Below, one piece after another: positions 40,147 through 55,294 of a stretch of DNA of 64,000 nucleotides. The notes under the pieces are model-generated. The model saw only the letters and a list, made by a program, of their open reading frames with translations. It made no database searches and was not told the DNA's origin. Where the stretch lies: positions 1-64,000 of the forward strand of contig NZ_JAANOY010000012.1 in assembly GCF_011320095.1 (NCBI RefSeq), given 5' to 3'. The translations under genes were made by a program, and so were the position numbers. Positions within the stretch are counted from its first letter, which is position 1; every line of letters starts with the position of its first letter. This DNA is from Cognatiluteimonas telluris. Lineage in GTDB: Bacteria; Pseudomonadota; Gammaproteobacteria; Xanthomonadales; Xanthomonadaceae.

Positions 40147-40236
<90 letters not shown>

Positions 40237-40411
40237 CGGATGCAATGCGCACGGCGCCCTCGGGCGCCGTTTGCATTTGTGGGGCGGCATCCAGCCCTGG
40301 CGCGGCGGATCGGCACCTGGGAAGGCCCTCGGCGCGCGCTGGTGACCCATGCCATGGCCGTTCGGGGTCCATGCGTAAAATCAGGATCCCCCGCCCAGAC
40401 CCGGTGCGCGC

Positions 40412-40825: not shown

Positions 40826-40851
40826 GCGGGAGGATATGGATCCTCGAAGCG

Positions 40852-40880
40852 CTCGCGGCTGAAGCCGCCCCTGCAAGAGC
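40852..40880. repeat. REP-like element (copy related to 39103-39169)
   Basis: TCGCGGCTGAAGCCGCCCCTGC matches the inverted unit found after dnaQ (CTCGCGGCCGAAGCCGCTCC) with a few differences. It lies between two convergent genes, DUF6165 and the UV-endonuclease-like gene, the usual location for these elements. Confidence 0.75.
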
Positions 40881-40901
40881 CGCAGATGCGCTTTGGCGGT
40901 G

Positions 40902-41339
40902 CTACGGATGGCCTGCGCGCTCCCAGGGTGCGACCGGGCCGGGCACCATGGTGAACATCGGATGGCAATCGGGCGCCTGGATGTCGCGCCATTGCCGGTA
41001 CAGCGCGGGGCTGCGCGCCTGCAGCTTGGCCAGCAGGTGTTGCCACTCCAGGGCCAGCTGGCCGCTGCTTGCCTGGAGCCTGGCGCTCGCGTCCAGCGGC
41101 CCGAGCTTGCTGGCGTCGTAGCGATAGCCCCGCGCCAGCGACTCGGCGTGGACGCCATGCAGGTATCGGTCGATGGCCAGCTGCGGTTGCGCATGCGCCT
41201 GGAAGCGCTGCAGTTGCGGATGCTGCCGGTAGCCGCGCGTGAGTCCCTGCAGGACGGCGCGTGCGAGCAGGCTTTCGCGCCACAGTGCGGTCAGGCCCTG
41301 CGCATCGAGGAAACGCGGATGCAGTGTCCACAGGCGCAT
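40902..41339 (-). CDS. Pyrimidine-dimer DNA glycosylase-like protein (T4 endonuclease V family)
   Basis: This 145-residue protein starts at ATG 41337-41339. The N-terminus MRLWTLHPRFLDAQGLTALWRE and the segment GYRQHPQLQRFQ are typical of bacterial members of the pyrimidine-dimer glycosylase family related to phage T4 DenV, an enzyme that excises UV dimers. Whether this cellular version is active is unknown, because the catalytic N-terminal Thr and the Glu of DenV are not clearly aligned. It begins 2 bases after the glycosyltransferase stop and is probably co-transcribed with it. Confidence 0.78.
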   Translation of the reverse strand: MRLWTLHPRFLDAQGLTALWRESLLARAVLQGLTRGYRQHPQLQRFQAHAQPQLAIDRYLHGVHAESLARGYRYDASKLGPLDASARLQASSGQLALEWQHLLAKLQARSPALYRQWRDIQAPDCHPMFTMVPGPVAPWERAGHP

Positions 41340-41341
41340 GG

Positions 41342-42415
41342 CTAGCGTGCCCCGCGATCGCTGACGAAGCGCTCGAACGCCGCGACCGCATCGTCCACGG
41401 TAACCAGGTCCATGACCCCGGGCCGTTCGATCCGGGTGCCCCAGCGCAGCGCGGTTTCCGGCTTGCCGAGGAACCTGCGCGCGGCGGCATCGTAACGGTC
41501 CACGCAATAGCGCTGGTCCGAATACGGCCCGCTGCGCGCGGGATTGCTCGCCGCATGCAGGCCCAGCACCTTGGTGCCCATCGCATTGGCGATGTGCATC
41601 GGGCCGGAGTCGGGCGTCATCACCAGGTCGGCGCGTTCGAGCAGGGCAGGCAACTGCTTGAGCGTGTCCTTGCCGACCAGGTCCAGCGCCGGAGCGGTCA
41701 TTGCGGCGAGGATCGCATCGGCCGTCTCGCGTTCGAGCGCGCTGCGCCCGCCGCACAGCACCACCCGCCAGCCGCGCGCGATCGCATGGTTGGCGACGGC
41801 CGCGTTGCGCTCGGGCCGCCAGTTGCGCAATGGGTGGCTGGAGCAGGGCGAGACCAGCAGCGTCGGCACGCCATCGGCCGGCCATTGCGCCGCCGCCCAG
41901 CCCCGCGCGGCCGCGGGCACCGGGAGATCCCATCGGACCTGGGTCTGCTTCAGCCCGAGCGGTTCGGCGAAGCTGCCGATCGCATCGAGCACGTGCATCC
42001 CGCGGCGCGCGGCGATGCGCTCGTTGACGAACAGTCCATGCAGGTCCTTGGCCCGCGCGCGGTCGTAACCGATGCGCCGGCGCGCCGGGATGAAGGCCGA
42101 CAGCAGGTTGGCGCGGGCAGCCACCTGCAACTGCAGCAGCGCGTCGAAGCGCCCGCCGGCGAAATGGCGGGCGATCGCGCGCATCCCCGCCAGCCCGCTG
42201 CGCTTGTCGTATTCGACGAAGCCCACGCCTTCGAGTCCTTCCAGCAGCCGGTGCTCGGCCTTGCCGATCACCCAGCCCAGCCGTACCTCGGGCCATGCCG
42301 CGCGCAGCGTGCGCACCAGCGGCACCACGTGGGTCGCGTCGCCAAGCGCGGACAGCCGCAACAGGCAGATCGAGCGCGGCGCTTGCGGGACATCCGGCAG
42401 GGAAGAAGGGGTCAT
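41342..42415 (-). CDS. Glycosyltransferase family 9 (heptosyltransferase-type)
   Basis: This is a 357-residue GT-B enzyme starting at ATG 42413-42415. The N-terminal ICLLRLSALGDATHVVPLVRTLRAAWP is the heptosyltransferase acceptor-domain signature, and the C-terminal nucleotide-sugar domain has VMTPDSGPMHIANAMGTKVLGL. It transfers an ADP-heptose-like sugar to the LPS inner core. It is divergent from kdkA, which adds phosphate to Kdo, so the two act on the same structure. The exact acceptor (WaaC/WaaF/WaaQ type) cannot be decided from sequence alone. Confidence 0.9.
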   Translation of the reverse strand: MTPSSLPDVPQAPRSICLLRLSALGDATHVVPLVRTLRAAWPEVRLGWVIGKAEHRLLEGLEGVGFVEYDKRSGLAGMRAIARHFAGGRFDALLQLQVAARANLLSAFIPARRRIGYDRARAKDLHGLFVNERIAARRGMHVLDAIGSFAEPLGLKQTQVRWDLPVPAAARGWAAAQWPADGVPTLLVSPCSSHPLRNWRPERNAAVANHAIARGWRVVLCGGRSALERETADAILAAMTAPALDLVGKDTLKQLPALLERADLVMTPDSGPMHIANAMGTKVLGLHAASNPARSGPYSDQRYCVDRYDAAARRFLGKPETALRWGTRIERPGVMDLVTVDDAVAAFERFVSDRGAR

Positions 42416-42435
42416 GTGCTTGCTAGACTCGCGCG

Positions 42436-43200
42436 ATGGCCGCATTCGACGCCAGTGAAAGCCTGGCGCCCTTCCAGTATGGGCGAGACGGGCGCAACGA
42501 GGGCTATGGCGCGATCCTGTTCGACGCCGAGCGCGCGCGCGATGTCCTGCCCGAATGGTTCCTGCCCCCGTTCTGGGGCGAGCACGCGCGGCCGGTGGCG
42601 GTCGGCGGCCGCGGCGGCGCCTGGTTCGTCGAATCCCCGCTGGGCGCTCTGGTGCTGCGCCAGTACCTGCGCGGCGGCTGGGCGGCGCACGTGAGCCGCG
42701 ACGCGTTCGTGTGGCACGGTGCCAACCGGGTGCGCAGCTTCGCTGAATTCCGGCTCACCCGCGCCCTGCACGCACGCGGGCTGCCGGTGCCGCGACCACT
42801 GGCGGCATGCTACCGGCGTCGCGGGCACAGCTACCGCGCCGCGATCCTGATCGAGCGGCTCGAAGGCGTGCATTCGCTGGCCGAACGCGCCGCCGTCGCC
42901 GGCCGCGACGCGCCGTGGGAGGAAACCGGACGACTCGTCGCGCGTTTCCATCGCGCCGGGCTCGACCACGCCGACCTCAACGCGCACAACATCCTGTTCG
43001 ATGCCGGTGCGCATGGCTGGCTGATCGACTTCGACCGCAGCCGCCTGTGCATCCCGGAAACCGCCTGGCGCGAGCGCAACCTCGCGCGCCTCAGGCGCTC
43101 GCTGCTCAAACTGCGCGGCGCGCGCGAGCCGGCGCAGGTCGATGCCGATTTCGCGCGCCTGCGCGGCGCCTACGACGCCACCTGGGCACGAGGCTATTGA
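42436..43200 (+). CDS. kdkA: 3-deoxy-D-manno-octulosonic acid (Kdo) kinase
   Basis: This is a 254-residue kinase of the KdkA/RfaP family in the protein-kinase-like fold. The catalytic loop [14 protein letters not shown] and the metal-binding LIDFDRSRL are visible, and the glycine-rich loop lies around VGGRGGAW. It phosphorylates the 4-position of Kdo in the LPS inner core, adding negative charge needed for outer-membrane integrity in xanthomonads. The next gene starts 1 base after the stop. Confidence 0.95.
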
Positions 43201-43201
43201 G

Positions 43202-43960
43202 ATGACGTGGGCGTTGCGCTTCCAGGGGACCGGCAATTCCAGCGCGGTCGAACTCGGCTCGGCGATGGCGACGATCGAGCGCGACGGCCAGCCGTGGCTG
43301 ACCATCGACTGCGGCAGTGAAGGGCTGACGGAGTACATCGCGCATTACCACGCGTATCCGCAGGCGCTGTTCATCACCCACGCGCACCTGGACCATGTCA
43401 GCGGGTTCGAGCGATTGTTCGGCGCCAACTATTTCGCCAGCCCGCGCCCCGACGGCACGCGGCTGTATGTCCCGGCGGCATTGCTGCCGCTGCTGCAGCA
43501 GCGCATTGCCGGCTATCCCAACGTGGTCGCCGAGGGCGGCGCCAACTTCTGGGATGCGTTCCGGCTGGTGCCGGTGGGCGATGCGTTCTGGCACGACGGT
43601 GTGCGCCTGGAATGCTTCCCGGTCCGCCATCACTGGCCCGACACCGCCTTCGGCCTGCGCCTGCGCGGCAGCCTGGCGTGGACCGGCGATACCCGGCCGA
43701 TCCCGGAGCAGCTGGCGAAATTCGCCGATGCCGGCGAGTTGGTGGCGCACGATTGCGCGCTGCGCGGCAACCCTTCGCACAGCGGCATCGACGACCTCGA
43801 GCGCGAATATCCGCGTGGGCTGCTCGATCGTTGCCTGCTTTATCACTACGGCGGCGCCGGGGACGCGCAGGCATTGACCGCGCGCGGATATCGGGTCGCG
43901 CTGCCGGGTGACTGCGTGCCGCTGCAGCCGCCACGGCCGTTGCCGGTGACGCACGCATGA
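43202..43960 (+). CDS. MBL-fold metallo-hydrolase, unknown substrate
   Basis: This 252-residue metallo-beta-lactamase-fold protein has metal ligands in ITHAHLDHVSG, later SLAWTGDTRP (Asp ligand) and VRHHWPD; the active site looks complete for two metals. It resembles RNase Z/phosphodiesterase-like members (PhnP or ElaC branch) more than lactamases, but lacks a distinctive exosite. It begins 1 base after kdkA (TGAG-ATG), so it is in the same transcript and could be involved with phosphodiester removal in LPS, although that is a guess. The moaA gene follows after about 37 bases. Confidence 0.82.
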   Translation: MTWALRFQGTGNSSAVELGSAMATIERDGQPWLTIDCGSEGLTEYIAHYHAYPQALFITHAHLDHVSGFERLFGANYFASPRPDGTRLYVPAALLPLLQQRIAGYPNVVAEGGANFWDAFRLVPVGDAFWHDGVRLECFPVRHHWPDTAFGLRLRGSLAWTGDTRPIPEQLAKFADAGELVAHDCALRGNPSHSGIDDLEREYPRGLLDRCLLYHYGGAGDAQALTARGYRVALPGDCVPLQPPRPLPVTHA

Positions 43961-43997
43961 GCAGCGGCGGATGGGTGCTGTCGTCGGCGGCGCGGGC

Positions 43998-45041
43998 ATG
44001 AACGCGCAATTCCTGCCCGAGCCGGTCGCATTGCCGCGCGACCGCCTGTCGCGGCCACTGCGCGACCTGCGCCTGTCGGTGATCGACGCCTGCAATTTCC
44101 GATGCCCGTACTGCATGCCGGAAGACCGCGTTGCCGACGGCCATGGACTGGATTCGGCATCGCGGATGGACTTCGACGAGATCGAAGCGCTGGTGCGCGG
44201 CTTCGTGCGCCTGGGCGTGCGCAAGCTGCGGCTGACCGGCGGCGAACCGCTGCTGCGCAGGCGGCTGCCGGAACTCATCGCGCGCCTGGCGGCGATCGAA
44301 GGCATCGACGACCTCGCGCTGACCACCAACGGATCGCTGCTCGGCACCCATGCCGCCGCCCTGCGCGTGGCCGGCCTGCGGCGGCTCACCGTCAGCATCG
44401 ACGCACTTTCGCCCGCTGTCTTCCGCCGGCTCAGCGGCGGTCGCGGCGATGTCGGCGACGTGCTGGCCGGCATCGATGCCGCGCAGGCAGCGGGCTTCGG
44501 ATCGATCAAGCTCAACTGCGTCGTCCAGCGCGGCATCAACGATGGCGAGGTGCTGCCGCTTGTGGAGAAGTTCCGGGGCAGCGGCCACGTGCTGCGCTTC
44601 ATCGAATACATGGACGTGGGCAGCTGCAACGGCTGGCTGCGCGAACACGTGGTGCCGTCGTCGGAACTGCGCGAACGCATCCATGCGGCCTGGCCGCTGC
44701 GTGCGCTGGACGCCAATTACACCGGCGAAGTCGCAGCGCGGCATGCGTTCGTCGATGGCGCCGGCGAGATCGGTTTCGTCAGCTCGATCAGCGCGCCGTT
44801 CTGCGGCGATTGCCACCGCGCGCGGGTATCGGCCGACGGCAGGCTCTATACCTGCCTGTTCGCAGGGCAGGGCAGCGACCTGCGTGGCGCGCTTCATGCG
44901 GGGCCCGACGCGTTGGAGGGGCGCATCGCCGGGTTGTGGTCCGGTCGCGCCGACCGCTACAGCGAGCTGCGCGGCCGCGCGCCGGCGACGACCGACGGCA
45001 GGTCGCGCAGACATGTCGAAATGTTCCTGATCGGAGGTTGA
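43998..45041 (+). CDS. moaA: GTP 3',8-cyclase MoaA (molybdopterin)
   Basis: This is a 347-residue radical-SAM enzyme (ATG 43998; an ATG at 43971 would add 9 residues). The N-terminal 4Fe-4S motif is CNFRCPYC, with GGEPLLR and SISAPFCGDCHRARV, the C-terminal cluster with a third Cys in LYTCLF. It ends with the expected IGG-type tail (MFLIGG). It converts GTP to 3',8-cyclo-7,8-dihydro-GTP, the first step of molybdenum cofactor synthesis. No Moco riboswitch structure is evident upstream. Confidence 0.96.
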   Translation: MNAQFLPEPVALPRDRLSRPLRDLRLSVIDACNFRCPYCMPEDRVADGHGLDSASRMDFDEIEALVRGFVRLGVRKLRLTGGEPLLRRRLPELIARLAAIEGIDDLALTTNGSLLGTHAAALRVAGLRRLTVSIDALSPAVFRRLSGGRGDVGDVLAGIDAAQAAGFGSIKLNCVVQRGINDGEVLPLVEKFRGSGHVLRFIEYMDVGSCNGWLREHVVPSSELRERIHAAWPLRALDANYTGEVAARHAFVDGAGEIGFVSSISAPFCGDCHRARVSADGRLYTCLFAGQGSDLRGALHAGPDALEGRIAGLWSGRADRYSELRGRAPATTDGRSRRHVEMFLIGG

Positions 45042-45563
45042 GTGGCCACCCGCAAGCAGACATCCAAGCCATCGCTAACGCACCTGGATCCCGCCGGCCG
45101 CCCGGCCATGGTCGATGTCTCGGCCAAGGCGGTGACGGCGCGCGAGGCGATCGCGCACTGCCGGGTGCGCTTCCCCGCCGCCGTGGCCCGGCAGTTGCGC
45201 GCGGCGAAGCTGAAAAGCGCCAAGGGCGGCATCGTCGAGACCGCGATCATCGCCGGCACGATGGCGGTCAAGCGCACCCATGAGCTGATTCCGTTCTGCC
45301 ATCCACTGCCGATCGACGGCTGCCGGATCGCGATCGACTGGATCGACGACAACGCCATCGGCATCACCTGCCGCGTGCGCACCACCCATCGTACCGGCGT
45401 CGAGATGGAGGCGCTGACCGGCGCCACGGTCGCCGCGCTCACGGTGTACGACATGTGCAAGGCCTTGTCGCATGCGATCGTGATCGGCCCGGCGAAGCTG
45501 CTCGGCAAGCGCGGTGGCAAGCGCGACTTCGGCGAAGGCGCGGCCGGGAAAGCGCGCGCATGA
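45042..45563 (+). CDS. moaC: Cyclic pyranopterin monophosphate synthase MoaC
   Basis: This 173-residue enzyme starts at GTG 45042, adjacent to the moaA TGA, with GGAGG before it. The family motif [26 protein letters not shown] and [21 protein letters not shown] are visible, including catalytic Lys and His residues. It rearranges the MoaA product to cPMP. It overlaps moaD by ATGA. Confidence 0.97.
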
Positions 45564-45802
45564 CCCGCGCCACCGTGCTGTATTTCGCCAGCCTGCGCGA
45601 TGCCGCCGGTATCGCCAGCGAGGTCGTCGACAGTGACGCCGTCGACCTGGCCGCGTTGTACACGCAACTTCGCGCGCGCCATGGATTCAAGCTCGAGCGC
45701 GATCGCCTGCGGGTCGCGGTCGACGCCACCTTCGCCACCTGGCAGGACAAATTGCGCGAAGGCAGCGAGATCGCCTTCATCCCGCCGGTGAGCGGAGGCT
45801 GA
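45560..45802 (+). CDS. moaD: Molybdopterin synthase sulfur carrier MoaD
   Basis: This 80-residue beta-grasp protein ends in the diagnostic GG (VSGG), which is thiocarboxylated by MoeB and donates sulfur. The start ATG overlaps the moaC stop; upstream in-frame sequence is not related. The mid sequence [14 protein letters not shown] is typical of MoaD. Confidence 0.95.
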
Positions 45803-45804
45803 GG

Positions 45805-46221
45805 GTGGACGCCGCGCGCTTCCAGCTGGCGGCCACGCCATTCGACGTCGCGACCCTGCGCGCCGGCCTGCTCGACCCGGGCGTCGGCGCGTACGCCAGC
45901 TTCGAAGGCTGGGTGCGCCAGCACAACGACGGGCGCCCCGTCCGTGGCCTGCGCTACGAAGCCTACGCCGCGCTCGCCGCGACCGAAGGCGAACGCATCC
46001 TCCAGCAGGCGCTGCAGGAATTCGACATCCTCGACGCCCGCTGCACGCACCGCACCGGCGACCTCGTCGTCGGCGAACTCGCCGTGTGGGTCGGCGTCAC
46101 CGCCGCCCACCGCGCCCCCGCCTTCGCGGCCTGCCGCTTCGTCATCGACGAGGTCAAGGCTCGCGTCCCAATCTGGAAGCACGAGCGTTATCGGGGCGGC
46201 CAGACGACCTGGCTGCCCTGA
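45805..46221 (+). CDS. moaE: Molybdopterin synthase catalytic subunit MoaE
   Basis: This 138-residue enzyme starts at GTG 45805, three bases after moaD. Signature segments YASFEGWVRQHNDGRPVRGL, HRTGDLVVGELAVWVGVTAAHR and VPIWKHERYRGG (catalytic Lys) are present. With MoaD it inserts dithiolene sulfurs into cPMP. It completes the moaACDE set; moaB, mog and moe genes are not in the window. Confidence 0.97.
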   Translation: MDAARFQLAATPFDVATLRAGLLDPGVGAYASFEGWVRQHNDGRPVRGLRYEAYAALAATEGERILQQALQEFDILDARCTHRTGDLVVGELAVWVGVTAAHRAPAFAACRFVIDEVKARVPIWKHERYRGGQTTWLP

Positions 46222-46303
46222 TCTGCCGGTGTTGCCGGGCGTCGCGGCTGCGGCGGCCATACTTGCCTGTACTGGGAAATGCGGAGGACCGCATGCAGGA
46301 ACG

Positions 46304-46379
46304 GTGACAGCGGTCACGAAAACAAACATTGACGTTAAATGCCAGATGAACGTCAATGCAGGAGCCCGACATTGACGTT
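46304..46379. promoter_or_regulatory. Repeated 10-bp elements upstream of the peptide operon (candidate operator)
   Basis: CATTGACGTT occurs at 46327-46336 and 46370-46379, and its reverse complement AACGTCAATG at 46349-46358. The three identical 10-mers start 22 and 21 bases apart, close to two helical turns each. Just before them is a palindrome GTGAC-AGCG-GTCAC (46304-46317). Such perfectly repeated sites in a 200-base leader are typical of a dedicated regulator binding cooperatively. No regulator gene lies in the operon, so the protein would be encoded elsewhere. Confidence 0.6.
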
Positions 46380-46426
46380 GTGGCACCCAGCCTGAGGGGG
46401 AGTCAGGAGTTAGCTAGGGAAAAAGC

Positions 46427-46594
46427 ATGAACAACACTGTGATGGTCGAGCAGCTCGACAACCGTTTCGAAATGGAGATGTTCGTGGTCGGCGCGATGGC
46501 GATGGAAGGAACCGTCAGTGCCGAGCAGGCGGAAGCCGCGTCGTGCTGCGAAAACTATACCTGCACGTTCTCACCGTCGATTCCGTCCAATTGA
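46427..46594 (+). CDS. Candidate RiPP precursor peptide (Cys/Ser/Thr-rich tail)
   Basis: This 55-residue peptide is too short for normal ORF calling. The ATG has an AGGGAAA ribosome site. Residues 1-38 look like a leader: Met/Glu-rich, with the segments EQLDNRFEMEMFVVGAMAME and VSAEQAEAA. The tail from residue 39 is SCCENYTCTFSPSIPSN, with three Cys, several Ser/Thr and two Pro; an AEAA/S boundary would suit protease cleavage. Cys40 and Cys41 are adjacent and Cys46 lies five on. It is followed by a hairpin and by genes for a leader-binding (PqqD-like) membrane protease. I do not recognise a published family; the RiPP reading is an inference from context. Confidence 0.7.
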   Translation: MNNTVMVEQLDNRFEMEMFVVGAMAMEGTVSAEQAEAASCCENYTCTFSPSIPSN

Positions 46595-46600
46595 TCCACC

Positions 46601-46626
46601 TGGCGCCCGGGTCCTCCCGGGCGCCA
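46601..46626 (+). terminator. Perfect hairpin between precursor gene and processing genes
   Basis: TGGCGCCCGGG and CCCGGGCGCCA form an 11-bp perfect stem with loop TCCT, starting 7 bases after the precursor stop and followed only by TTTG. It is 20 bases before the ATG of the protease gene. It is best read as a partial terminator or mRNA-stabilising element letting the peptide be made in excess over the downstream enzymes, as is common in RiPP operons. Confidence 0.7.
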
Positions 46627-46645
46627 TTTGACGCAAGGACGCGTG

Positions 46646-47791
46646 ATGCTGAAACCAGGCATTGAAGTCGCCGAAGTGGTCGATTCGCGTGGCTCCAGGT
46701 TCCTCCTCAAGTGCGACGAGGTTTATTACGCCGTCGACCGATCGGTTGCCGGAATCGTCCGCTCGCTGCAGGAGGACGGTGGTGGACCTCGTTCGCGCCA
46801 GCGGATTTACGCCGAATACGGCGTGGCCGCCGTCGATCTCGACCAGTACGTCCTCGAGCATTTTCCGGCCTCGTGGCGGGTCGGAACGCCAACCGCAAAA
46901 ACCCGTAGCCCGTTGCTGTTCCAATTCCGCATCCTGTCGGGAAGGCCGTTGCAGGTCATGGCGCGTGGCTTGGGTTGGCTCTTCCATCCGGCCGTTGCCG
47001 CGCTCGCGGGTGTGCTGAGCCTGCTTGCCTGCGGCTGGAGTTTCGCCAGGTTCCGACCCGACCACTGGGGGATCGCCCTGCACCGGCCGCATGAGGCGTG
47101 GTACCTGCTGGGCCTGGTCGTACTCGGCATCCTGGTCCATGAGCTTGGCCACGCCAGCGCGCTGGTTCGCTTCGGCGGCACCAGCCGCGGGATCGGGCTC
47201 GGGATCTACTGGGGCTTTCCCACCTTCTTTGCCGATGTCACCGGTGCATGGGTGTTGCCGGACAGGCGCAAGGTGGTGGTCGACATCGCGGGCCTGTATT
47301 TCCAGTTGCTCTACCTTGGCATCGTCAGCGCGGCCGGGGTTGCCATGGGCGCCACGCTGGCGCTGGGCGTCGTAATGGCCACCGTCCCGCTGATGATGCA
47401 TACCTTGAACCCTGCCCTGAAGTTCGATGGCTACTGGGTGTTGAACGATTTCTTCGGGCTCAACAACCTTCATCGCGACATTCGCGACCGACTGGTGTTG
47501 TTGCTTAGGCGTGCCGCCGGCAAACCCGGGCGAGCGGTCAGCATCGTCGAAGTCGGCGGAGTGGCCGCGTTCGCCGGATTGTGCGTCTACCAGTTCTATT
47601 TCATGGCATCGAACGCGTGGAGTGGCCTCGCGCGATTTGCCAATCTTCGCGGGATTGGGTCGATGCAGGCGGGCGAACTGGTGGTCAACGGGGCGATGCT
47701 GCTGCTCTTCACGGCCGTAAGCATCATGTTGGCCAAGCGCGCGGCCACCAGCGTTTCGCAGGTCGTCTCGGGAGTGCGGCATGGCTGCTGA
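46646..47791 (+). CDS. PqqD-like domain fused to M50 (site-2-protease-like) membrane peptidase
   Basis: This is a 381-residue protein. ATG 46646 with AAGGA seven bases upstream was preferred to an upstream TTG (46628). Residues 1-80 resemble PqqD/RRE leader-peptide recognition domains (LLKCDEVYYAVDRSVAGIVRS). Then multiple membrane spans carry the zinc site HELGH (His165, His169, Glu166) and the site-2-protease partner motif NPALKFDG (Asn255, Asp261). Another two or three hydrophobic helices follow and the protein ends in Cys. YydH, which matures the epipeptide in Bacillus, is an M50 example in a RiPP system. It probably cleaves or processes the precursor at the membrane. Confidence 0.82.
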   Translation: MLKPGIEVAEVVDSRGSRFLLKCDEVYYAVDRSVAGIVRSLQEDGGGPRSRQRIYAEYGVAAVDLDQYVLEHFPASWRVGTPTAKTRSPLLFQFRILSGRPLQVMARGLGWLFHPAVAALAGVLSLLACGWSFARFRPDHWGIALHRPHEAWYLLGLVVLGILVHELGHASALVRFGGTSRGIGLGIYWGFPTFFADVTGAWVLPDRRKVVVDIAGLYFQLLYLGIVSAAGVAMGATLALGVVMATVPLMMHTLNPALKFDGYWVLNDFFGLNNLHRDIRDRLVLLLRRAAGKPGRAVSIVEVGGVAAFAGLCVYQFYFMASNAWSGLARFANLRGIGSMQAGELVVNGAMLLLFTAVSIMLAKRAATSVSQVVSGVRHGC

Positions 47792-48476
47792 CATGGCCCG
47801 CTCCAGCGCAGGCGCAGGCGCGGTCGCGGCGTCCGGTCGCCGCCTCTACATACTGCCCTTCACCCGTCGTGCCGCGCGGCTGGTCGGGAAACTCGACCGA
47901 CGTGGCCCCCTGGTGATCATCGGCTCCCGGCAACCGATTGCCAGCCGGTGTCGTGAACTGGGTCGCCACGAGTTCATGTCGCCTTACGAAGTCCATCGCC
48001 ACGTCCGTGCAGGCGGCGCACGCCGGACCTTCGTATCGTTTCCGGAGATGGTCGGAGCAGGCACCGCCTCCGCGGCCGTAATTCCGTTCGCGGGCGAATT
48101 GCTGGCGTTTTCGACGATCGAGCTGTGGCTCGTCCTCGAAGGCTTCCGTCCGTACGCGCCGAGGACCTCGCTTTTCGGTTACCGCTTGCGGCCGATGCCG
48201 GCCAGCTTCGACGAGGGTGATGGAGTCGAAGCCCGCATCCAGCAATTGTTCGCCTTGCTCGAGCACGAAGTGGTCAACCACGCACACGACCATCTGTACC
48301 CTGCCGCCCTTCATCGCAAGACCGCCGCCGGAACGGCCGCGGCGCTCGTCGATGCCGCGCGCGACATGACCGCGATCGCCCGACTCATGCACATGCGTGG
48401 GGTTGATTTCGGAGCGACGCGATCATTCGTGTCACGATTGCAGGAGGCCGCCGAGGCCATAGCGACAACGAGGTGA
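47781..48476 (+). CDS. Uncharacterised protein, possibly a diverged LPLAT-like protein
   Basis: This 231-residue protein overlaps the protease gene by 11 bases (a second ATG at 47793 is possible) and its stop overlaps the next start as GTGA. There are no strong membrane helices and no signal peptide. Residues 41-52 (RGPLVIIGSRQP) and 84-127 (FVSFPEMV ... AAVIPFAGELLAFSTIELWLVLEGFRPYAP) can be aligned by eye with the LPLAT motifs of its neighbour (GAIIATPH and IMPDVYF ... SVPFFDRLLRMMPGTAYFACKAGVPIVP), but the active-site His is replaced by Arg/Gln. It may be a catalytically dead paralogue acting as a partner. This is a weak similarity judged without a search. Confidence 0.45.
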   Translation: MAADMARSSAGAGAVAASGRRLYILPFTRRAARLVGKLDRRGPLVIIGSRQPIASRCRELGRHEFMSPYEVHRHVRAGGARRTFVSFPEMVGAGTASAAVIPFAGELLAFSTIELWLVLEGFRPYAPRTSLFGYRLRPMPASFDEGDGVEARIQQLFALLEHEVVNHAHDHLYPAALHRKTAAGTAAALVDAARDMTAIARLMHMRGVDFGATRSFVSRLQEAAEAIATTR

Positions 48477-49498
48477 TTGAAAGCATGCACGAACGTGCCC
48501 TTCGCAGGCGCTATGCGCTGATCCCGTTGCTGTCGCGGCTGTCGATGCTCGATGGCAGCGCACATCGAAAGGCGGACCTCGCGGCCGGGGTGATCCACGC
48601 CTTGGGCATCGGCGGCCGGTCGCGGCCTGCCATCGCGCGCGAGGTTTTCATGTCGCTCTGGCGCTCGCACCTGATCCTCCAATACATCAATGGCGCATCG
48701 AAGGAATCCATCTGGTCTTTCCTCGATGCCAACGTGCACGTGACCGGGCCCGACCTTCGCGAGCTGGAGAAGCGGCCGCAAGGTGCCATCATCGCCACGC
48801 CGCATTACGGCGCTTTCCTGCCGCTGTGCGTGTACCTGATCCAGCTGTTCGACCAGGGCAGGAAGCTGCACGTGATGTTCAACGATCCGGCCAAGACCCC
48901 GTCCAATCGCGGTCACGAAGACCTGTTCAGGCGCGTCGGCCACAATGCCGAATTCCACTATCCCGACCGGCGCGGGATCATCGCAGTGATCAAGGCCCTC
49001 AAGCGAGGCGAGATCCTCGCGATCATGCCGGACGTCTATTTCCAGTCCGAAACGCTGCTTTCGGTCCCATTCTTCGACCGCTTGTTGCGGATGATGCCGG
49101 GCACGGCCTACTTCGCATGCAAGGCGGGTGTCCCGATCGTCCCGATCTATTCGTGTCCGCGCCGCGACTTCGGATTCGACCTGGAGGTGCAACCCCACCT
49201 GCAGCCAGGCGGAGAGGATGAGGATGAGGACCTTGCCGTCTACCGGCTGAGTTGCGATTACGCGGCAAACATGGAGCGCCGCTTCACGCGCGATCCGTTC
49301 CACTGGATTTACTGGGACAATCTCATGTCACGATCAACGGCCTTCGTGGACCGGGGCGGCCGTACGGATATTGGCGTGCTCCAGCAGGAACTGCACCGCC
49401 TGTTTGCATCGGCCGCTCCGATGGTGCGCGGCCAGCCCGCCTTGTGCCAGTCCTACGAACAACTGCAGGCGGCGATCGCCGCACAGGAGGCTGCATGA
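48473..49498 (+). CDS. LPLAT-superfamily (LpxL/HtrB-like) acyltransferase homologue
   Basis: This 341-residue protein starts at GTG 48473 (alternative ATG 48485). It belongs to the lysophospholipid/lipid A acyltransferase superfamily: the region ATPHYGAFLPLC (His111) is the motif-I site, IMPDVYFQS (Asp187) and SVPFFDRLLRMMPGTAYFACKAGVPIVPIY are motifs III and IV. Motif I normally reads HX4D/E; here the acidic residue is Leu116, so the standard charge relay is missing. N-acylation of the peptide or of lipid A is possible; a non-catalytic lipid-binding role cannot be excluded. It is translationally coupled to both neighbours. Confidence 0.8.
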   Translation: MIESMHERALRRRYALIPLLSRLSMLDGSAHRKADLAAGVIHALGIGGRSRPAIAREVFMSLWRSHLILQYINGASKESIWSFLDANVHVTGPDLRELEKRPQGAIIATPHYGAFLPLCVYLIQLFDQGRKLHVMFNDPAKTPSNRGHEDLFRRVGHNAEFHYPDRRGIIAVIKALKRGEILAIMPDVYFQSETLLSVPFFDRLLRMMPGTAYFACKAGVPIVPIYSCPRRDFGFDLEVQPHLQPGGEDEDEDLAVYRLSCDYAANMERRFTRDPFHWIYWDNLMSRSTAFVDRGGRTDIGVLQQELHRLFASAAPMVRGQPALCQSYEQLQAAIAAQEAA

Positions 49499-49857
49499 AC
49501 CGTTGGAAGCTGACCCTCATGATCGCCGCGTTGATGTTCGCCACTGCGGCCATTGCAGGGGAGTCGCGCAGCATCGGATTGACCTTCAGCGGCGATCGCG
49601 AGGGTTTTTTCCTCGATCCCATCATGAAGCGCGTCTACGTCTCGGCGGTGGTCGACAAATCCCTGGCGGGGATGGCCGGTTTCCTGCCGAAAGACGAGAT
49701 CCTTGAAATCGAAGGCGCACGCGTTCCGGGCATGCGCGCACGCGCGCTGATGGATTACTGGGCGCAGGTCAGCAGCCGCAGGGTCATTCATTTCGTGATT
49801 TCGCGCAGCGGGACCCGGATGTCGATCGACCTGAACACGCAAGCCCAGGTGCCGTGA
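49495..49857 (+). CDS. Small exported PDZ-domain protein
   Basis: This 120-residue protein overlaps the acyltransferase stop (ATGA). The signal peptide MNRWKLTLMIAALMFATAAIA is followed by a single PDZ-like fold with VYVSAVVDKSLAGMAGFLPKDEILEIEGARVPG, the classic carboxylate-binding/strand core. No protease domain is attached. PDZ domains of site-2 proteases feed substrates to the active site in the membrane; a periplasmic PDZ protein next to an M50 protease could do this in trans. It is the last gene of the operon. Confidence 0.8.
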   Translation: MNRWKLTLMIAALMFATAAIAGESRSIGLTFSGDREGFFLDPIMKRVYVSAVVDKSLAGMAGFLPKDEILEIEGARVPGMRARALMDYWAQVSSRRVIHFVISRSGTRMSIDLNTQAQVP

Positions 49858-49921
49858 TTCGAGTCGTCCGGCGCCAGCGAAGCAGAAACCAGTTGCCGCG
49901 GCCGGGCCTTGCAATAGGCGA

Positions 49922-50025
49922 TGGCCCTGCCGGCTGACCTCGGCGCCCGCGTCGATCGATACCGTTGCTGCCTTCCGGCCCTGGCGGGATTTTCGACCTA
50001 GCGTCGCGAGGGGCCGACAGGGCCA
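49922..50025 (-). ncRNA. ffs: 4.5S RNA (bacterial small SRP RNA)
   Basis: On the minus strand the ends are complementary (TGGCCCTG... / ...CAGGGCCA) and the conserved domain IV tip GCCAGGGCCGGAAGGCAGCA is present, with the asymmetric internal loop of the Ffh-binding site. The whole 104 nt folds into a single long hairpin as expected for the small (Alu-less) SRP RNA. It lies directly downstream of tRNA-Ser(GGA) on the same strand and converges with the peptide operon. Confidence 0.93.
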
Positions 50026-50069
50026 CCATAGAGACTTGCTTGCGTCCCGCTGACCTGCGCTTGCAAAGC

Positions 50070-50162
50070 TGGCGGAGAGAGGGGGATTCGAACCCCCGAA
50101 GCGCGGTTTAGACGCTTACACACTTTCCAGGCGTGCTCCTTCAACCACTCGGACACCTCTCC
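50070..50162 (-). tRNA. tRNA-Ser (GGA)
   Basis: This 93-base class II tRNA lies on the minus strand. Acceptor GGAGAGG pairs with TCTCTCC, the anticodon is GGA in CTGGAAA, the variable arm is long, and CCA is encoded (TGG at 50070-50072 on the plus strand). It shares a likely transcript with ffs. Confidence 0.95.
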
Positions 50163-50272
50163 GCTGGAACCCGCGTGCATGCAAGGCCTGCATTCAGGGC
50201 CGGCAATTCTAGCCGCCGCACCCGATCGCCACAAGGAAGCATTGCCGCGCCCGCCCGTAGCCCGCCTGGATG

Positions 50273-50299
50273 AATGGCGCCAATGGCGCCAATGGCGCC
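50273..50299. repeat. Short tandem repeat AATGGCGCC x3 upstream of dnaX
   Basis: Three perfect 9-base copies of AATGGCGCC occur about 60 bases before the dnaX ATG, followed by a partial GCCCGCC. The repeat number may vary by slippage; an effect on dnaX expression is possible but unproven. Confidence 0.7.
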
Positions 50300-50360
50300 C
50301 GCCCGGCCGGTGCGCCGCGCGGCGCGGGCAAAATTCCCCCCGGCGCGGCAGAATGCAGGG

Positions 50361-52052
50361 ATGTCCTACCTCGTCCTCGCCCGCAAGTGGCGCCCGAAGC
50401 GGTTTGCCGAACTGGTCGGGCAGGAGCACGTGGTGCGCGCGCTGACCAATGCGCTGGACAGCGGCCGGGTCCACCACGCCTTCCTGTTCACCGGCACGCG
50501 CGGGGTGGGCAAGACCACCATCGCGCGGATCTTCGCCAAGTCGCTCAACTGCGAGCAGGGAAGTTCGGCCGAGCCCTGCGGTGAATGCAATTCCTGCCGC
50601 GACATCGACGCCGGCCGCTTCATCGACCTGCTCGAGATCGACGCGGCCTCCAACACCGGCGTCGACGACGTGCGCGAGGTGATCGACAACGCGCAGTACA
50701 TGCCGTCGCGCGGACGGGTGAAGGTCTACCTGATCGACGAAGTGCACATGCTGTCCAAGCCGGCGTTCAACGCGCTGCTCAAGACGCTGGAAGAGCCCCC
50801 GGGGCACGTGAAATTCCTGCTCGCGACCACCGACCCGCAGAAACTGCCGGTGACCGTGTTGTCGCGCTGCCTGCAGTTCAACCTCAAGCGCCTGGACGAG
50901 CAGCAGATCAGCGGGCAGATCAGCAGGATCCTGGAAGCCGAAGGCATCCCGGTCGAGCCGGGCGCGGTGCGCCAGCTGGCCAAGGCCGCCGACGGCAGCC
51001 TGCGCGACGGACTGTCGCTGCTCGACCAGGCCATCGCCTACACCGGCGCCGGTGCCGGCGTGATGCTCGCCGATGACGCGGTGGCGGGCATGCTGGGCAG
51101 CGTCGACCGCAGCCGCGTCAATGCGCTGCTGGACGCACTGGGCGTGGGCGACGGCGAAGTGCTGCTGGCGCAGGTCGCGGAGCTGGCGGAATTTTCGCCA
51201 GACTGGCATGGCGTGCTCGATGCCATCGCCGAGGCCTTGCACCGCGTGCAGGTCAAGCAACTGGTGCCGGCGGTGGAAGGCGAAAGCGACGCCATCGACA
51301 TCGAGGCACTTGCCGCGCAACTGCGGCCGGAGCTGGTCCAGCTGTGGTATCAGATGGCGTTGAACGCGCGCCGCGACCTGAACCTGGCGCCGAGTCCGCG
51401 CGCTGGATTCGAGATGGCCGTGTTGCGCATGCTGGCCTTCCGCCCCGGTGCGACGGGCGCGCAGGCTGTGGCTTCCGGGGCGCCACGGGTGGCCAGTGCC
51501 GCCGCGGCGCGCGCTGCGCTGGCCGAACCCAGGGCAGGGGCCGCGCACCCCCCGAGCCAGGCGCGAACGGCGCAACCGACGGCGCGCGGTCCGCAAGCCG
51601 CGGCGCCCCCTGCCATTGCCATCCCGGCGCAGCGATCCGATCCGCCCGCGTCGGCCATCGCCGCAATCGACGGCGAGCGTTGGCTCGAACTCGTCGCCGC
51701 CAGTGGATTGAGCGGGCCGGCGCGGCAGCTCGCCAACCACGCAGGCTTCGCCGGTCACGAAGGCGGCATCCTGCGCCTGACGCTGGCGCCGGCCGACGAA
51801 CACCTGCAGATGCCGAGCCTGGTCAAGGCGCTGGCCGAAGCGCTCGCTCCCGCGCTGGGGGGCGTCCCGCAGATCCGCTTCGAAACCGCGCAGGCACCGA
51901 CCGAAACCCTGCACCAGCGCAGCGTGCGCGATCGCGATGCGCGCCAGGTCGCCGCCGAAGCGGCGTTCCTGTCCGATGCCGGCATCCAGCACCTGATCGA
52001 CAAGCACGGCGCCACCCTGGTGCCCGATTCCATCCGCCCCTTCGACGAATAG
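50361..52052 (+). CDS. dnaX: DNA polymerase III subunits gamma/tau
   Basis: This is a 563-residue clamp-loader ATPase (ATG 50361; in-frame sequence from 50274 lies in the repeat). The N-terminus MSYLVLARKWRPKRF is family-typical, Walker A is GTRGVGKTTIARIF, the zinc module is CEQGSSAEPCGECNSC, and LIDEVHMLSKPAFNALLKTLEEPP is Walker B and sensor region. C-terminal tau parts follow an Ala/Pro-rich linker (about residues 370-440) and bind DnaE and DnaB. I did not find the A-AAA-AAG slippery sequence used for gamma in Escherichia coli. It is followed closely by ybaB and recR. Confidence 0.97.
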   Translation: MSYLVLARKWRPKRFAELVGQEHVVRALTNALDSGRVHHAFLFTGTRGVGKTTIARIFAKSLNCEQGSSAEPCGECNSCRDIDAGRFIDLLEIDAASNTGVDDVREVIDNAQYMPSRGRVKVYLIDEVHMLSKPAFNALLKTLEEPPGHVKFLLATTDPQKLPVTVLSRCLQFNLKRLDEQQISGQISRILEAEGIPVEPGAVRQLAKAADGSLRDGLSLLDQAIAYTGAGAGVMLADDAVAGMLGSVDRSRVNALLDALGVGDGEVLLAQVAELAEFSPDWHGVLDAIAEALHRVQVKQLVPAVEGESDAIDIEALAAQLRPELVQLWYQMALNARRDLNLAPSPRAGFEMAVLRMLAFRPGATGAQAVASGAPRVASAAAARAALAEPRAGAAHPPSQARTAQPTARGPQAAAPPAIAIPAQRSDPPASAIAAIDGERWLELVAASGLSGPARQLANHAGFAGHEGGILRLTLAPADEHLQMPSLVKALAEALAPALGGVPQIRFETAQAPTETLHQRSVRDRDARQVAAEAAFLSDAGIQHLIDKHGATLVPDSIRPFDE

Positions 52053-52064
52053 CAGGCCAGGACC

Positions 52065-52382
52065 ATGCGTGGAAACATCGCCCAGCTCATGCAGCAGGCA
52101 CAGAAGATGCAGGAAAACGTCCAGCGCGCGCAGGAGAAGCTGGCCGGCGTGGAAGTCGTCGGCAGCGCCGGCGGCATGGTCGACATCACCCTGAGCGGAC
52201 GCATGGAATGCCGCAAGGTGCGGCTGGATCCGGCAGCACTGTCGGACCCTGAAATGGCCGAGGACCTGGTGCTGGCGGCCTTCAACGACGCCGTCTCCAA
52301 GGTCAATGCGTTGTCGCAGGAAACCCTCGGCGCCGCCACCGCGGGCATGCCGCTGCCGCCGGGCATGAAGCTTCCTTTCTGA
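52065..52382 (+). CDS. ybaB: Nucleoid-associated protein YbaB/EbfC
   Basis: This is a 105-residue DNA-binding protein of the YbaB/EbfC family ([26 protein letters not shown] helix, then a beta region [18 protein letters not shown]). It forms dimers that bind DNA in the nucleoid. It starts 12 bases after dnaX and belongs to the conserved dnaX-ybaB-recR operon. Confidence 0.95.
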
Positions 52383-52536
52383 GCTGGCGTTGCGGCGGCG
52401 CACTCGTTGGCGACGCCAGTCTGACCATCGAACCGCCGGCATCACCGTGCCGGAATCGCGCTTGGACCGGAAACGGATAGAGCGGAAAGACACACGCCGT
52501 CATCGCACGTCGCGCAATCGCGGAATACATCGACCC

Positions 52537-53133
52537 ATGAGCTCTCCGCTCCTCGAACAACTCATCGACGCCTTCCGCGTGCTGCCGGGAGTCGGGCCGA
52601 AGTCGGCGCAGCGCATGGCGTACCACGTGCTCGAGCGTGAGCGCGACGGCGGCCGCCGGCTTGCCGAAACACTGGCTGCGGCGGTCGAGCGGATTGGCCA
52701 CTGCACGCGTTGCCGCGACTTCAGCGAAACCGAACTGTGCGCGACCTGCGCCAGCGCCAGCCGCGACGCGCAACTGCTTTGCGCGGTGGAATCGCCGGCC
52801 GACCGGCTCGCGATCGAGCAGGCCACCGGCTATCGCGGAATGTACTTCGTGCTGCAGGGCCGGCTCAGCCCGCTCGATGGCATCGGCCCGCGCGAACTGG
52901 GCCTGGACAAACTCGCCGCGCGCCTGGCCGAAGGCGAAGTGCAGGAACTGATCATCGCCACCAACCCGACGGTGGAAGGCGAAGCCACCGCGCACTACCT
53001 CGCGCAGCTCGCCCGCCAGCATGGCGCACGTCCCAGTCGGCTGGCCCACGGCGTCCCCCTGGGTGGCGAACTCGAATACGTCGATCGCGGCACGCTGTCG
53101 CATGCGTTCGGCAGCCGCAGCGAGATGCCGTAG
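52537..53133 (+). CDS. recR: Recombination mediator RecR
   Basis: This is a 198-residue protein. ATG 52537 gives the normal N-terminus with [17 protein letters not shown] (HhH), then the C4 zinc finger [16 protein letters not shown] and a Toprim domain ([14 protein letters not shown] ... [19 protein letters not shown]). It helps load RecA in the RecFOR pathway. It follows ybaB after 154 bases. Confidence 0.97.
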
Positions 53134-53224
53134 GGCCGGCGGTGCGAGCGATGCGAGTGGCGAGCGTGATGCACGACTGCGTGATGAACTTCAATACCCG
53201 ATCGCCGCCTTGAGGGAGCAATGC

Positions 53225-53575
53225 ATGTCAACCATCTTCGACCGGATCATCCGCCGCGAGGTCCCTGCCGACATCGTCTACGAAGACGAGCAGCTGATCG
53301 CATTCCGCGACATCGCGCCGCAGGCGCCGATCCATGTCCTGTTCGTCCCCAAGACGCCGATCGCAACCCTCAACGACCTGACCCCGGAGCAGGCGCCGAT
53401 CATCGGCCAACTGGCGCTGGCTGCGGCGGACTACGCCAAGCGCGAAGGCTTCGCGCAAGCCGGATATCGCACAGTCATCAACTGCAATGGCGACGCCGGC
53501 CAGACCGTGTTCCAGGTCCACCTGCACCTGCTGGCAGGCGCGCCGCTGGGCCACTTCGGCACCCCGATCCGCTAG
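53225..53575 (+). CDS. hinT: HIT-family hydrolase (HinT-like)
   Basis: This 116-residue histidine-triad protein begins MSTIFDRIIRREVPADIVYED. The active site reads QVHLHLLAG where the canonical motif is HxHxHxx, so the first His is Gln; the nucleophilic (second) and third His are present, and this substitution is tolerated in related sequences. It is a purine-nucleotide phosphoramidase that cleaves adenylated amines. Starts in the 53021 frame before ATG 53225 are unrelated to the family. Confidence 0.92.
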   Translation: MSTIFDRIIRREVPADIVYEDEQLIAFRDIAPQAPIHVLFVPKTPIATLNDLTPEQAPIIGQLALAAADYAKREGFAQAGYRTVINCNGDAGQTVFQVHLHLLAGAPLGHFGTPIR

Positions 53576-53735
53576 GGGGCATGTGAATGGGGATGCCCTG
53601 CGCGAGTTCGGGATGGTCGTGGCGCGCGGATCGCACGCATGCTCGCAGCGGATTACGCCGGCAACCCCGCTGCCCTTGGCCTTCTGTTCATTTCGTGTAC
53701 ACGGCGCAAAACGAATGGCGACGTATCCTCGCGCC

Positions 53736-53987
53736 ATGCAACTTGAACCCGGCCAGCTGTGGAAGGACGAAAACGGCCACGCCCGTATCTGCGGCCTGGT
53801 GCCCGTCGAGGGCGTGGACTATGCCGTGCTGCTCCGCACGCGTGGATCAGGCGGCCGGAAACGCCGCCCTTTCCTGTTCCCGGTAGCTTCCTTGCTTGCC
53901 GGCGATGACGGCTGGCGTAATGCCGAGGAACAGAAGCCGCGCCCGACCAACCACGACGCCGACTTTCTGCCGGACGGGCCAGCCTAG
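53736..53987 (+). CDS. Small conserved-looking hypothetical protein
   Basis: This 83-residue protein starts at ATG 53736 (MQLEPGQLWKDENG). It has a basic stretch RTRGSGGRKRRPFLFP in the middle and a short acidic tail; no signal peptide or membrane helix. The codon pattern and the ordered start suggest a real gene, but no family is recognised and no neighbour explains it. Confidence 0.5.
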   Translation: MQLEPGQLWKDENGHARICGLVPVEGVDYAVLLRTRGSGGRKRRPFLFPVASLLAGDDGWRNAEEQKPRPTNHDADFLPDGPA

Positions 53988-54274
53988 CCTTCCCAATCGC
54001 GTTCGCAGGCGTTGCCCGGGATCCACCGCCGACGGTGTCCGATTCGACCGGGTGCGCTGGGTCCTGCTCAGGCTGCAATCCGGGATCGGTGCGCGCGCTT
54101 GCACAATCAAGCGACAAGCCGCCGCAAATGCCTGACGCCGAACGGACGCCGGAGCTGGAGAGGGAGGTTATGGTGGACGTTGGGGTGAGTGGCTGGCACC
54201 ATTCCCGGCTGGCACCGGTGGCGACAAGGATGGGCTGAACTCATGGAATTGAGCGCAACACGCGGGAGAACTGC

Positions 54275-55294
54275 GTGACGAGGAGGACATCGGCGTCGAG
54301 TGACGCCGTCCCTGCGCCTCCGCTACTGCATCCTTGGTGGACGCAGGCACGGCTTCATGGTTTGCGTTCTTTCGACCGCTCGCTCCTGGTGGCGAGCTTC
54401 GCGCTGTTCTGTGCAAGCCTTGCAGGCATCGTAACGCTGGCACTGGATGCGAAGGCCGCGAAGTTGTTGTTCGATCAGCGGGCTGTTTTTGCGATCGCAA
54501 CGGCGATCATCTTGTTTTTCGCAGTACGCGTTCCAGCGGCAAACGCGGCACGGGCATTGCGTTACGGCTGGCTGGCCGCGCTGCCGATACCGGCGCGGAG
54601 CACCCGCAGTACGTTGCTGCTGGCCACCACCGTGTTTGGCGCGATGGTGCTCGCCTGCCTTGCGATCGGACTGGCGGGGCTGGGAGTGGGCCTGGGCCGT
54701 TCGGCGTACTTCGCCGTACTCCTCCCGTCCTGCGTCGGTGTGACGATCGCCTGTCTTGGCCTGGGCGGTATCGCCCTGCGTGCCTGGCATCGTCCGATGG
54801 CGATGCCGGCAACTCGCGGAGTCCGTGTCCCGCTGTTGTCGCTGGCATGGCTCGAGCATCGGGAACTGCCGTATCTGGTGGCCTGGCAAAATCGAGAGTG
54901 CGCACAGCAGTGGCGCATGGGCGGGGGAGCCAAGCCGATAGGCGCCGTGCTGCTGCTGTTTCCAGGTGCCCCGTCACAGTGGCAGTTGTTCGGCCTCATC
55001 GTCATGGCATTGGTGGTCGCCTGGCACCGATGCATGATGCAATCGTCGCTGTGGGTCGCCGAACGGGCTGCCGCCCTCGGCCATCAATGGACCTTGCCCA
55101 AGGCGTTCGTCCGAAACGCCCTGCTGCGATTGCCGCTCGCAGGAAGCGTCGCCGCCGCGGCCGTGCTTTTTGCATTGCTGCAGGCGGTGCAGCCGCCCCT
55201 GTTGGCCGTGGCCTCCGTCGCCCTGATCCTGGTGCTGGCCAGCCCCATCACGTTTGTGCGCCTGGCGGCGTGCCTCAGGAAAAATGCCTTTTGA
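54275..55294 (+). CDS. ABC transporter permease-like membrane protein
   Basis: This is a 339-residue protein from GTG 54275 with GGGAG upstream. About eight hydrophobic segments are present (near 35-55, 68-90, 95-110, 118-140, 143-165, 225-250, 285-312 and 315-330). It has no extracytoplasmic folded domain and no recognised substrate motif. The stop overlaps the ATPase start by TTGA, so it is the membrane half of a two-gene ABC exporter. It is upstream of the NRPS genes and may export the product, or it may be independent. Confidence 0.7.
   Translation: MTRRTSASSDAVPAPPLLHPWWTQARLHGLRSFDRSLLVASFALFCASLAGIVTLALDAKAAKLLFDQRAVFAIATAIILFFAVRVPAANAARALRYGWLAALPIPARSTRSTLLLATTVFGAMVLACLAIGLAGLGVGLGRSAYFAVLLPSCVGVTIACLGLGGIALRAWHRPMAMPATRGVRVPLLSLAWLEHRELPYLVAWQNRECAQQWRMGGGAKPIGAVLLLFPGAPSQWQLFGLIVMALVVAWHRCMMQSSLWVAERAAALGHQWTLPKAFVRNALLRLPLAGSVAAAAVLFALLQAVQPPLLAVASVALILVLASPITFVRLAACLRKNAF

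Follow-up and report, generated by a model that had tools for sequence, protein, structure and literature searches.

A five-gene module in Cognatiluteimonas telluris looks like a seemingly undescribed route to a modified, perhaps lipid-bearing, peptide that recurs in scattered bacteria. The module spans ~3.7 kb (46190..49914, with no strand assigned to it as a whole) of a 64,000-nucleotide stretch of contig NZ_JAANOY010000012.1, referred to here as the window. Its core is composed of a short precursor peptide with a Cys-bearing tail, a 231-residue protein of no known family (lpA), and a relative of the lipid A acyltransferases LpxL and LpxM (lpB). From these genes we infer a two-subtype system resembling those of ribosomally synthesized and post-translationally modified peptides (RiPPs). 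lpB, with lpA, would acylate the Cys tail, and in one subtype (type A) an M50-type membrane protease would bind the leader and remove it. This reading is tentative, its probability falling somewhat short of even.

The five genes lie on the plus strand. The precursor gene (46427..46594) is followed by the M50-type gene (46646..47791), lpA (47781..48476), lpB, which starts at 48485 (ATG) or 48473 (GTG) and ends at 49498, and a gene for an exported PDZ-like protein of 120 residues with a signal peptide recognized by eye (49495..49857). These open reading frame (ORF) coordinates confirm the five-gene unit headed by a 55-residue peptide that a preliminary description had proposed. The M50-type gene overlaps lpA, and lpB overlaps the PDZ gene. 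lpA and lpB overlap only from the GTG start, the ATG start leaving an 8-base gap, so the overlap claimed for all of the last four genes stands at two junctions and depends on the start codon at the third. The same description took the unit to be of RiPP type. That view is retained for the leader-tail precursor, the M50-type protease, the LpxL/LpxM-family protein, and the PDZ protein, with the core changed to the peptide, lpA, and lpB.

The module is represented by 14 distinct loci: the window, L016, L047–L054, L071, L072, L073, and L075. They come from 13 Xanthomonadaceae genomes and one genome of another gammaproteobacterial family (G1296, locus L075). lpA adjoins lpB in all 14, in 13 by a hidden Markov model (HMM) match (E ≤ 0.01) and in L075 by position and eye; the HMM was built from four of the 13 loci that it matched, the window included, and the lpA start is uncertain in L049 and L052. 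The loci fall into two types. In type A (window, L016, and L075), a peptide with an RFEME leader is followed by the M50-type gene, lpA, and lpB. In type B (11 loci), the leader is of the sense MDL..LE..M.AG, as judged by eye, the tails include CEICKCTW, CDISECTW, ICVCHF, and SDCCGSNNY, and the fetched 9–17 kb contain nothing related to the M50-type protein at E ≤ 0.1 in any of the 11. Leader type is thus tied to the protease: RFEME and the M50-type gene occur together in 3/3 loci and are both missing from 11/11, an arrangement expected once in 364 under random labels, uncorrected for kinship. The expected co-occurrence of an M50-type gene, a lysophospholipid acyltransferase (LPLAT)-like gene, and a short Cys-containing ORF is accordingly seen in L016 and L075 and breaks down in the 11 of 14 loci that have no M50-type relative in the fetched stretch.

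The 55-codon ORF is a gene. It encodes the leader LDNRFEME and the Cys tail SCCENYTCTFSPSIPSN, with a boundary placed by eye, and contains no long hydrophobic stretch. The window and L016 peptides are 41% identical overall and share CCE[ND]YTC in addition to RFEME, which is also found in L075. Both orthologous M50-type genes found (in L016 and L075) are preceded by a small ORF with RFEME, a check on which the earlier proposal depended. The leader is present in 4/4 type A peptides, L075 containing two tandem precursors, and the tails vary between loci, a layout general among RiPPs and here found beside putative maturation genes. In 14/14 loci, lpA–lpB is accompanied by an adjacent short ORF whose tail contains Cys.

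That the ORF is untranslated and belongs to an unrelated membrane-protein operon is hardly credible and is contradicted by several results. The tandem copies of L075 differ at nine nucleotides in their last 33 codons, with zero amino-acid changes. The L051 and L071 peptides differ by four synonymous and five non-synonymous changes, an uncorrected ratio of 0.35. Purine-rich ribosome-binding sites precede the peptide start in 13/13 loci inspected by eye (L071 left out), L052 being counted if the start is the ATG two codons on. In a composition control, 119 of 877 ORFs of 35–65 residues in the 14 loci carry CxnC within their 20 C-terminal residues. A further requirement of ≤3 Lys/Arg and ≥4 Asp/Glu leaves 13, of which 12 are the candidates picked by position. 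The composition limits were set after the peptides had been seen, the window contributed only 40001–56000, and the true peptides of L016, L073, and L050 fail the filter, owing to upstream in-frame starts or a single Cys. In the peptide alignment, the L051 row begins one codon early and is without the last residue. Together with the shared motifs and the recurrence in 14 loci, these observations bear out the translation of the frame.

lpB matches PF03279 (Lip_A_acyltrans) with 39.8 bits, above the cut-off of 22.3. With a 13-row lpB profile, LpxM (5KN7) is recovered at E 5.8e-7, and phosphatidylinositol mannoside acyltransferases follow at E ~0.005. The equivalents of LpxM H122 and D192, the Asp of the PD motif, are invariant in all 14 lpB proteins. 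The genome has three other PF03279 genes, and the possibility that lpB is the housekeeping lipid A gene was rejected on this ground. The LPLAT-like character first ascribed to both lpA and lpB is thus upheld for lpB.

The M50-type protein possesses the motifs of a site-2 protease, HELGH at residues 165–169 and D261-G262. H165, E166, H169, P256, D261, and G262 are invariant in 7/7 aligned relatives, in agreement with the site-2-protease type assigned to it at the outset. PF02163 was not matched by the window protein and stayed below cut-off in the relatives scanned. Two NCBIfam models matched below their cut-offs, the daptide HExxH protein NF041824 (daptide_HExxH) with 93 bits (cut-off 300) and LiaK (NF058609) with 48.6 (cut-off 225). 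Pfam gives no match at E ≤ 1 for three of the five proteins (peptide, M50-type protein, and lpA), and two of these, the peptide and lpA, are also unmatched in NCBIfam. A plasmid search with the L075 M50-type protein returned 77 records with a relative, and each of the four inspected (L090–L093) has a short ORF near by. In the Hymenobacter plasmids L091 and L093, an ORF of 49–51 residues and a ~305-residue protein lie close by (by eye); in the Streptomyces plasmid L092, an 86-residue ORF precedes the relative. No lpA or lpB was detected in the fetched stretches of the four plasmid loci at E ≤ 10. These relatives are compatible with a general role of the M50-type protein as a precursor-peptide protease. 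The Bacteroidota plasmid L090 (2179–7179) carries a radical-SAM-like ORF, a Cys-rich ORF of 47 residues, and a TonB-receptor-like ORF (by eye) beside its M50-type relative; judged by these genes, it is a further unannotated peptide cluster.

In the proposed pathway, a short precursor is made that consists of a leader and a Cys-bearing C-terminal tail, as its conservation shows. lpB, with lpA, would take up the precursor and move a fatty acyl group, most likely from acyl-ACP, onto the Cys tail. In type A, the N-terminal domain of the M50-type protease would bind the RFEME leader, and the enzyme would cut the leader off and free the lipopeptide, as co-occurrence and the relatives suggest. In type B, a Pro-rich protein with one transmembrane segment, where present, may handle release or export. 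The PDZ protein, when present, might assist in the periplasm, and the product may serve as a signal or an antagonist, either at the envelope or beyond it. A more specific form of this pathway is possible but doubtful. In this form, a late acyltransferase of lipid A synthesis, together with its dedicated partner lpA, would have been co-opted to mature a new class of ribosomal lipopeptides. A one-dyad His-Asp site would S- or O-acylate the Cys tail, and two alternative release modules, the M50-type protease or the one-transmembrane Pro-rich protein with or without PDZ, would be paired with the two leader types.

Several observations weigh against the acylation pathway. The equivalent of LpxM E127, the acid of the HX4E motif, is Leu, Ile, Val, or Ala in 14/14 lpB proteins (Leu in the window), so that the HX4[E/D] catalytic motif of LpxL and LpxM is found in none of them. 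No conserved Arg occupies the R159 position, in a poorly aligned column. According to excerpts of PMC6286764, LpxM has a hydrogen bond between H122 and D192 and a pair formed by E127 and R159, both residues of this pair being critical; in E. coli LpxL, the cost is ~1000-fold for H132A, ~3000-fold for E137A, ~170-fold for R169A, and ~15-fold for D200A. Since E127 and R159 are critical in LpxM and costly to lose in LpxL, lpB may be inactive or otherwise employed, and the loss of the HX4E acid leaves acylation plausible, not secure. Judged by its residues, the lpB family has consistently retained one LpxM dyad and lost the other. This pattern is compatible with a changed acceptor and also with a binding protein. 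Were the acceptor a thiol, this could explain why lpB can do without the HX4E Glu yet retains the His and the PD Asp.

A binding protein would suit a different RiPP-like system: lpB would transfer no acyl groups, and its reused LPLAT fold would bind lipid or peptide, acting as a scaffold for lpA or in delivery to the membrane. Modification of the Cys tail would then come from elsewhere (lpA, a disulfide, or cyclisation) or be absent. The loss of the acid in all 14 loci speaks for this alternative, as does the missing Arg; the host's three other PF03279 proteins keep H-x4-E (HFTTLE in L086, HYGNWE in L087, and HLGSFE in L089). In a decaying active site, the His and the PD Asp would not be expected to stay invariant, and the alternative is rather unlikely on balance.

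The other points against the acylation pathway concern lpA, the protease, and the peptides. lpA, by its sequence, is without a known fold: its best PDB matches (E 1.2 and 0.017) are unrelated proteins, its alignment with lpB by hhalign is not significant, and homology to the LPLAT superfamily is therefore not supported. Its AlphaFold2 model, from a two-row alignment, has a mean pLDDT of 41.7 and is unusable. The model of the M50-type protein, also from two rows, is likewise unusable (mean pLDDT 39.9), with no Foldseek match at E ≤ 0.001. The PqqD-like domain at the N terminus of this protein (first ~75 residues), part of the first proposal, could not be substantiated. PF05402 (PqqD) was matched neither in the protein nor in its relatives; three module genomes contain six matches to this family (E ≤ 10), all outside the M50-type gene. 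A PDB sequence comparison made for this domain gave no match below E 0.09. A β-β-β-α-α-α order, which is that of PqqD, is predicted at the N terminus at low confidence (pLDDT ~50–67). An RseP-type M50 gene lies upstream of the module in L048 and L049, so some type B loci do have a site-2 protease. Finally, the tail in L050 has a single Cys.

The L048 and L049 loci, from two genera, also bear on the function of lpB. In both, the module has an Omp85 (bamA-type) gene on one side and lpxD, followed by lpxA, on the other; in L051 and L071, lptD is ~2 kb away. The scan for lipid A and outer-membrane neighbours covered these four loci. Such neighbours would suit a peptide that is a small regulatory or sensor subunit, binding metal or sensing redox through its Cys, and that steers lpB in the acylation of lipid A or another envelope lipid. 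The setting between the bamA-type gene and lpxD is seen in 2/14 loci. The leader-tail layout, the tie of RFEME to the protease, the tandem precursors of L075, and the variable tails argue against a regulatory subunit, which we regard as improbable. In L052, a TraB/PrgY/GumN-family protein (PF01963, 65 bits; 6681–7688, minus strand) overlaps the end of lpB. In L075 of G1296, an alpha/beta hydrolase with a lipoprotein-like N terminus, as judged by eye, follows lpB (7858–8910, minus strand), and an AraC-type regulator lies upstream of the peptides (12629–13171, minus strand).

The two candidate accessory proteins are less constant. The PDZ-like protein of the window scores 19.6 bits, under the Pfam threshold of 27, and its L073 homologue, directly after lpB, scores 46.7 against 23.2. 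An HMM finds homologues in 3/14 loci, the window, L073, and L047 (on the opposite strand in L047), two of which (window and L073) were used to build it. The periplasmic PDZ protein of the preliminary description is thus sub-threshold in the window, above threshold in its L073 homologue, and found in these three loci. The one-transmembrane Pro-rich protein, which ends in a conserved FWPPGY..DPC sequence, is matched by an HMM in 6/11 type B loci (L047, L051, L054, L071, L072, and L073), three of which served to build the model. Look-alike ORFs occur in L050, L052, and L053 without an HMM match.

The Pro-rich protein would be given another task if the Cys tail were a metal-binding or redox peptide resembling a metallophore, for which it would drive uptake or export. 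Tails such as CEICKCTW, ICVCHF, SDCCGSNN, and KCTCTIEN lend themselves to this idea. Against it, Pfam finds no TonB domain in the four Pro-rich or similar proteins scanned, and no recurring receptor or oxidase was noticed among the neighbours, only some of which were scanned. We consider a metallophore-like peptide quite improbable.

Comparison within the genus indicates that the module is absent from this site in two relatives, as expected for an accessory pathway. The aligned flanks of G006 and G008 end at window positions 46190 and 46216 and restart at 49906 and 49914, respectively, with ~285 and ~155 unaligned bases in place of the module. Both genomes have the genes that border the module in the window, moaE on one side and the block of signal recognition particle (SRP) RNA, tRNA, and dnaX on the other, including tRNA-Ser(GGA). 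In this unpolarised comparison, gain of the module in the window genome is likelier than two separate losses. In the window, the SRP RNA (49924–50020) and tRNA-Ser (50073–50162) lie on the minus strand. A radical-SAM gene in the moa cluster, MoaA by eye (43971–45041), is outside the module. The G+C content of the module is 0.62–0.66 vs 0.66–0.75 in the flanking 500-base segments of 44000–52000. In L048, L051, and L071, the G+C content at third codon positions of the module is far under that of the flanks, for example 0.40 in the L051 lpB vs 0.72–0.84.

The M50-type protein has a different distribution from lpB. It was matched in 14/395 Xanthomonadaceae genomes, and among the ten neighbourhoods compared only that of G086 (L016) has lpA, lpB, and the peptide too; the nine neighbourhoods fetched from the 12 other genomes with an M50-type match contain no lpA, lpB, or peptide (blastp E ≤ 0.01). 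Eight other genomes of the same genus have no M50-type match, and G007 alone has lpB, in a type B locus. A ten-row lpB profile matched 13/385 family genomes at E ≤ 1e-20, in 10/54 genera. An earlier lpB search, at the level of the taxonomic order, matched 18/398 at E ≤ 1e-6, of which the window and eight other Xanthomonadaceae loci at E ≤ 1.3e-20 were examined; L055 and L056, two of the nine weak matches, were dropped as ordinary LpxL-like genes on their weak blastp score alone. At the level of the phylum, the window and G1296 are the 2/383 matches at E ≤ 1e-15, and G538, one of 2/369 class genomes matched, was left out of the locus set at E 7.7e-11. A two-row lpB search of genome contigs found only contig JAUXUI010000063.1, which carries L016 and belongs to a Lysobacteraceae metagenome-assembled genome; the same contigs gave no match to the M50-type protein as a single query.

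Mobile elements yielded little. Plasmids gave no match to lpB of the window or L049, and viral contigs none to the two-row lpB query. The ten-row query matched one viral contig, the IMG/VR contig L070, which duplicates L072 and is left out of the count. L072 has a phage replication-initiation gene (phrog_453), which we take to be inovirus-like, and a phage methyltransferase gene within ~2 kb. Phages searched with the L072 lpB and its Pro-rich protein gave no match, and neither the five window proteins, nor two Pro-rich proteins, nor one peptide matched PHROGs. A phage gene was rejected as an explanation, L072 being the only locus seen close to a phage replication gene. A role in anti-phage defence was also rejected, since no PADLOC model matched any of ten module proteins (five from the window and five from other loci) at E 0.1.

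The region upstream of the peptide contains three exact copies of an operator-like box, CATTGACGTT, where 0.08 are expected in the window. The copies at 46327..46336 (plus), 46349..46358 (minus, inverted), and 46370..46379 (plus) alternate in orientation with a start-to-start spacing of 21–22 bases. The pair CATTGACGTT...AACGTCAATG, with a gap of 5–35 bases, occurs genome-wide only at this site, directly ahead of the peptide gene. No regulator is encoded among the five module genes. Upstream of the orthologous peptide in L016 (7057–7174), there are direct and inverted repeats of a different operator-like sequence, of the sense GTGANCGATATTCAC.

Several known systems resemble parts of the module. 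The metalloproteases of daptides (MpaP) and epipeptides (YydH/LiaK/EpeP) are likewise M50-type membrane proteases beside a short precursor, but the module protein scores far below the cut-offs of 300 and 225, and Pfam and NCBIfam reveal no radical-SAM enzyme or enzyme of the daptide set among the five module proteins. Excerpts of PMC10885120 describe pearlin TglG/TmoG and epipeptide EpeP as M50 enzymes acting on small precursors. The pearlin enzymes share with the module a membrane M50 enzyme for a small precursor, but no peptide aminoacyl-tRNA ligase is among the five module proteins and the Cys of the module is gene-encoded. In selidamides and similar RiPPs, GNAT enzymes acylate (hydroxy)ornithine or lysine (excerpts of PMC9505594). 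The module would share with them a fatty-acylated ribosomal peptide, but combines an LpxL/LpxM relative with a Cys tail and has no GNAT enzyme. The DybA RiPP-lipoprotein hybrids carry a Cys lipidated through a signal peptidase II signal and the lipoprotein pathway, with an MNIO enzyme (excerpts of PMC12636315). Cys lipidation of a RiPP-type peptide would be common to both, but the module is without an MNIO enzyme and its peptide without a long hydrophobic stretch. LpxL and LpxM are of the same family as lpB by sequence, with the H122 and D192 positions retained. lpB differs from them in the loss of the E127 position and in its place beside lpA and a Cys peptide, both in 14/14 loci.

No description of this gene set was found in the open-licence literature or the family databases. 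The open-licence literature searched yielded no RiPP with a lysophospholipid acyltransferase, no peptide acylation by LpxL/HtrB, and no Xanthomonadaceae RiPP report matching this set. None of its best matches joins a lipid A biosynthesis acyltransferase to a precursor peptide or RiPP, and none of the best matches for daptides and M50 enzymes concerns RiPPs. The excerpted part of a survey of RiPP recognition elements (PMC12710340) makes no mention of M50 enzymes or acyltransferases. In the literature found, excerpts included, fatty-acyl transfer to RiPPs proceeds by GNAT enzymes (PMC9505594) or the lipoprotein pathway (PMC12636315). If the acylation pathway is true, the module would represent a third route, borrowed from the synthesis of lipid A and using an altered active site, and would add a maturase family. 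It would also show an envelope-lipid enzyme redirected to a peptide, and the matching of leader and protease across the two subtypes would provide a natural test of leader recognition.

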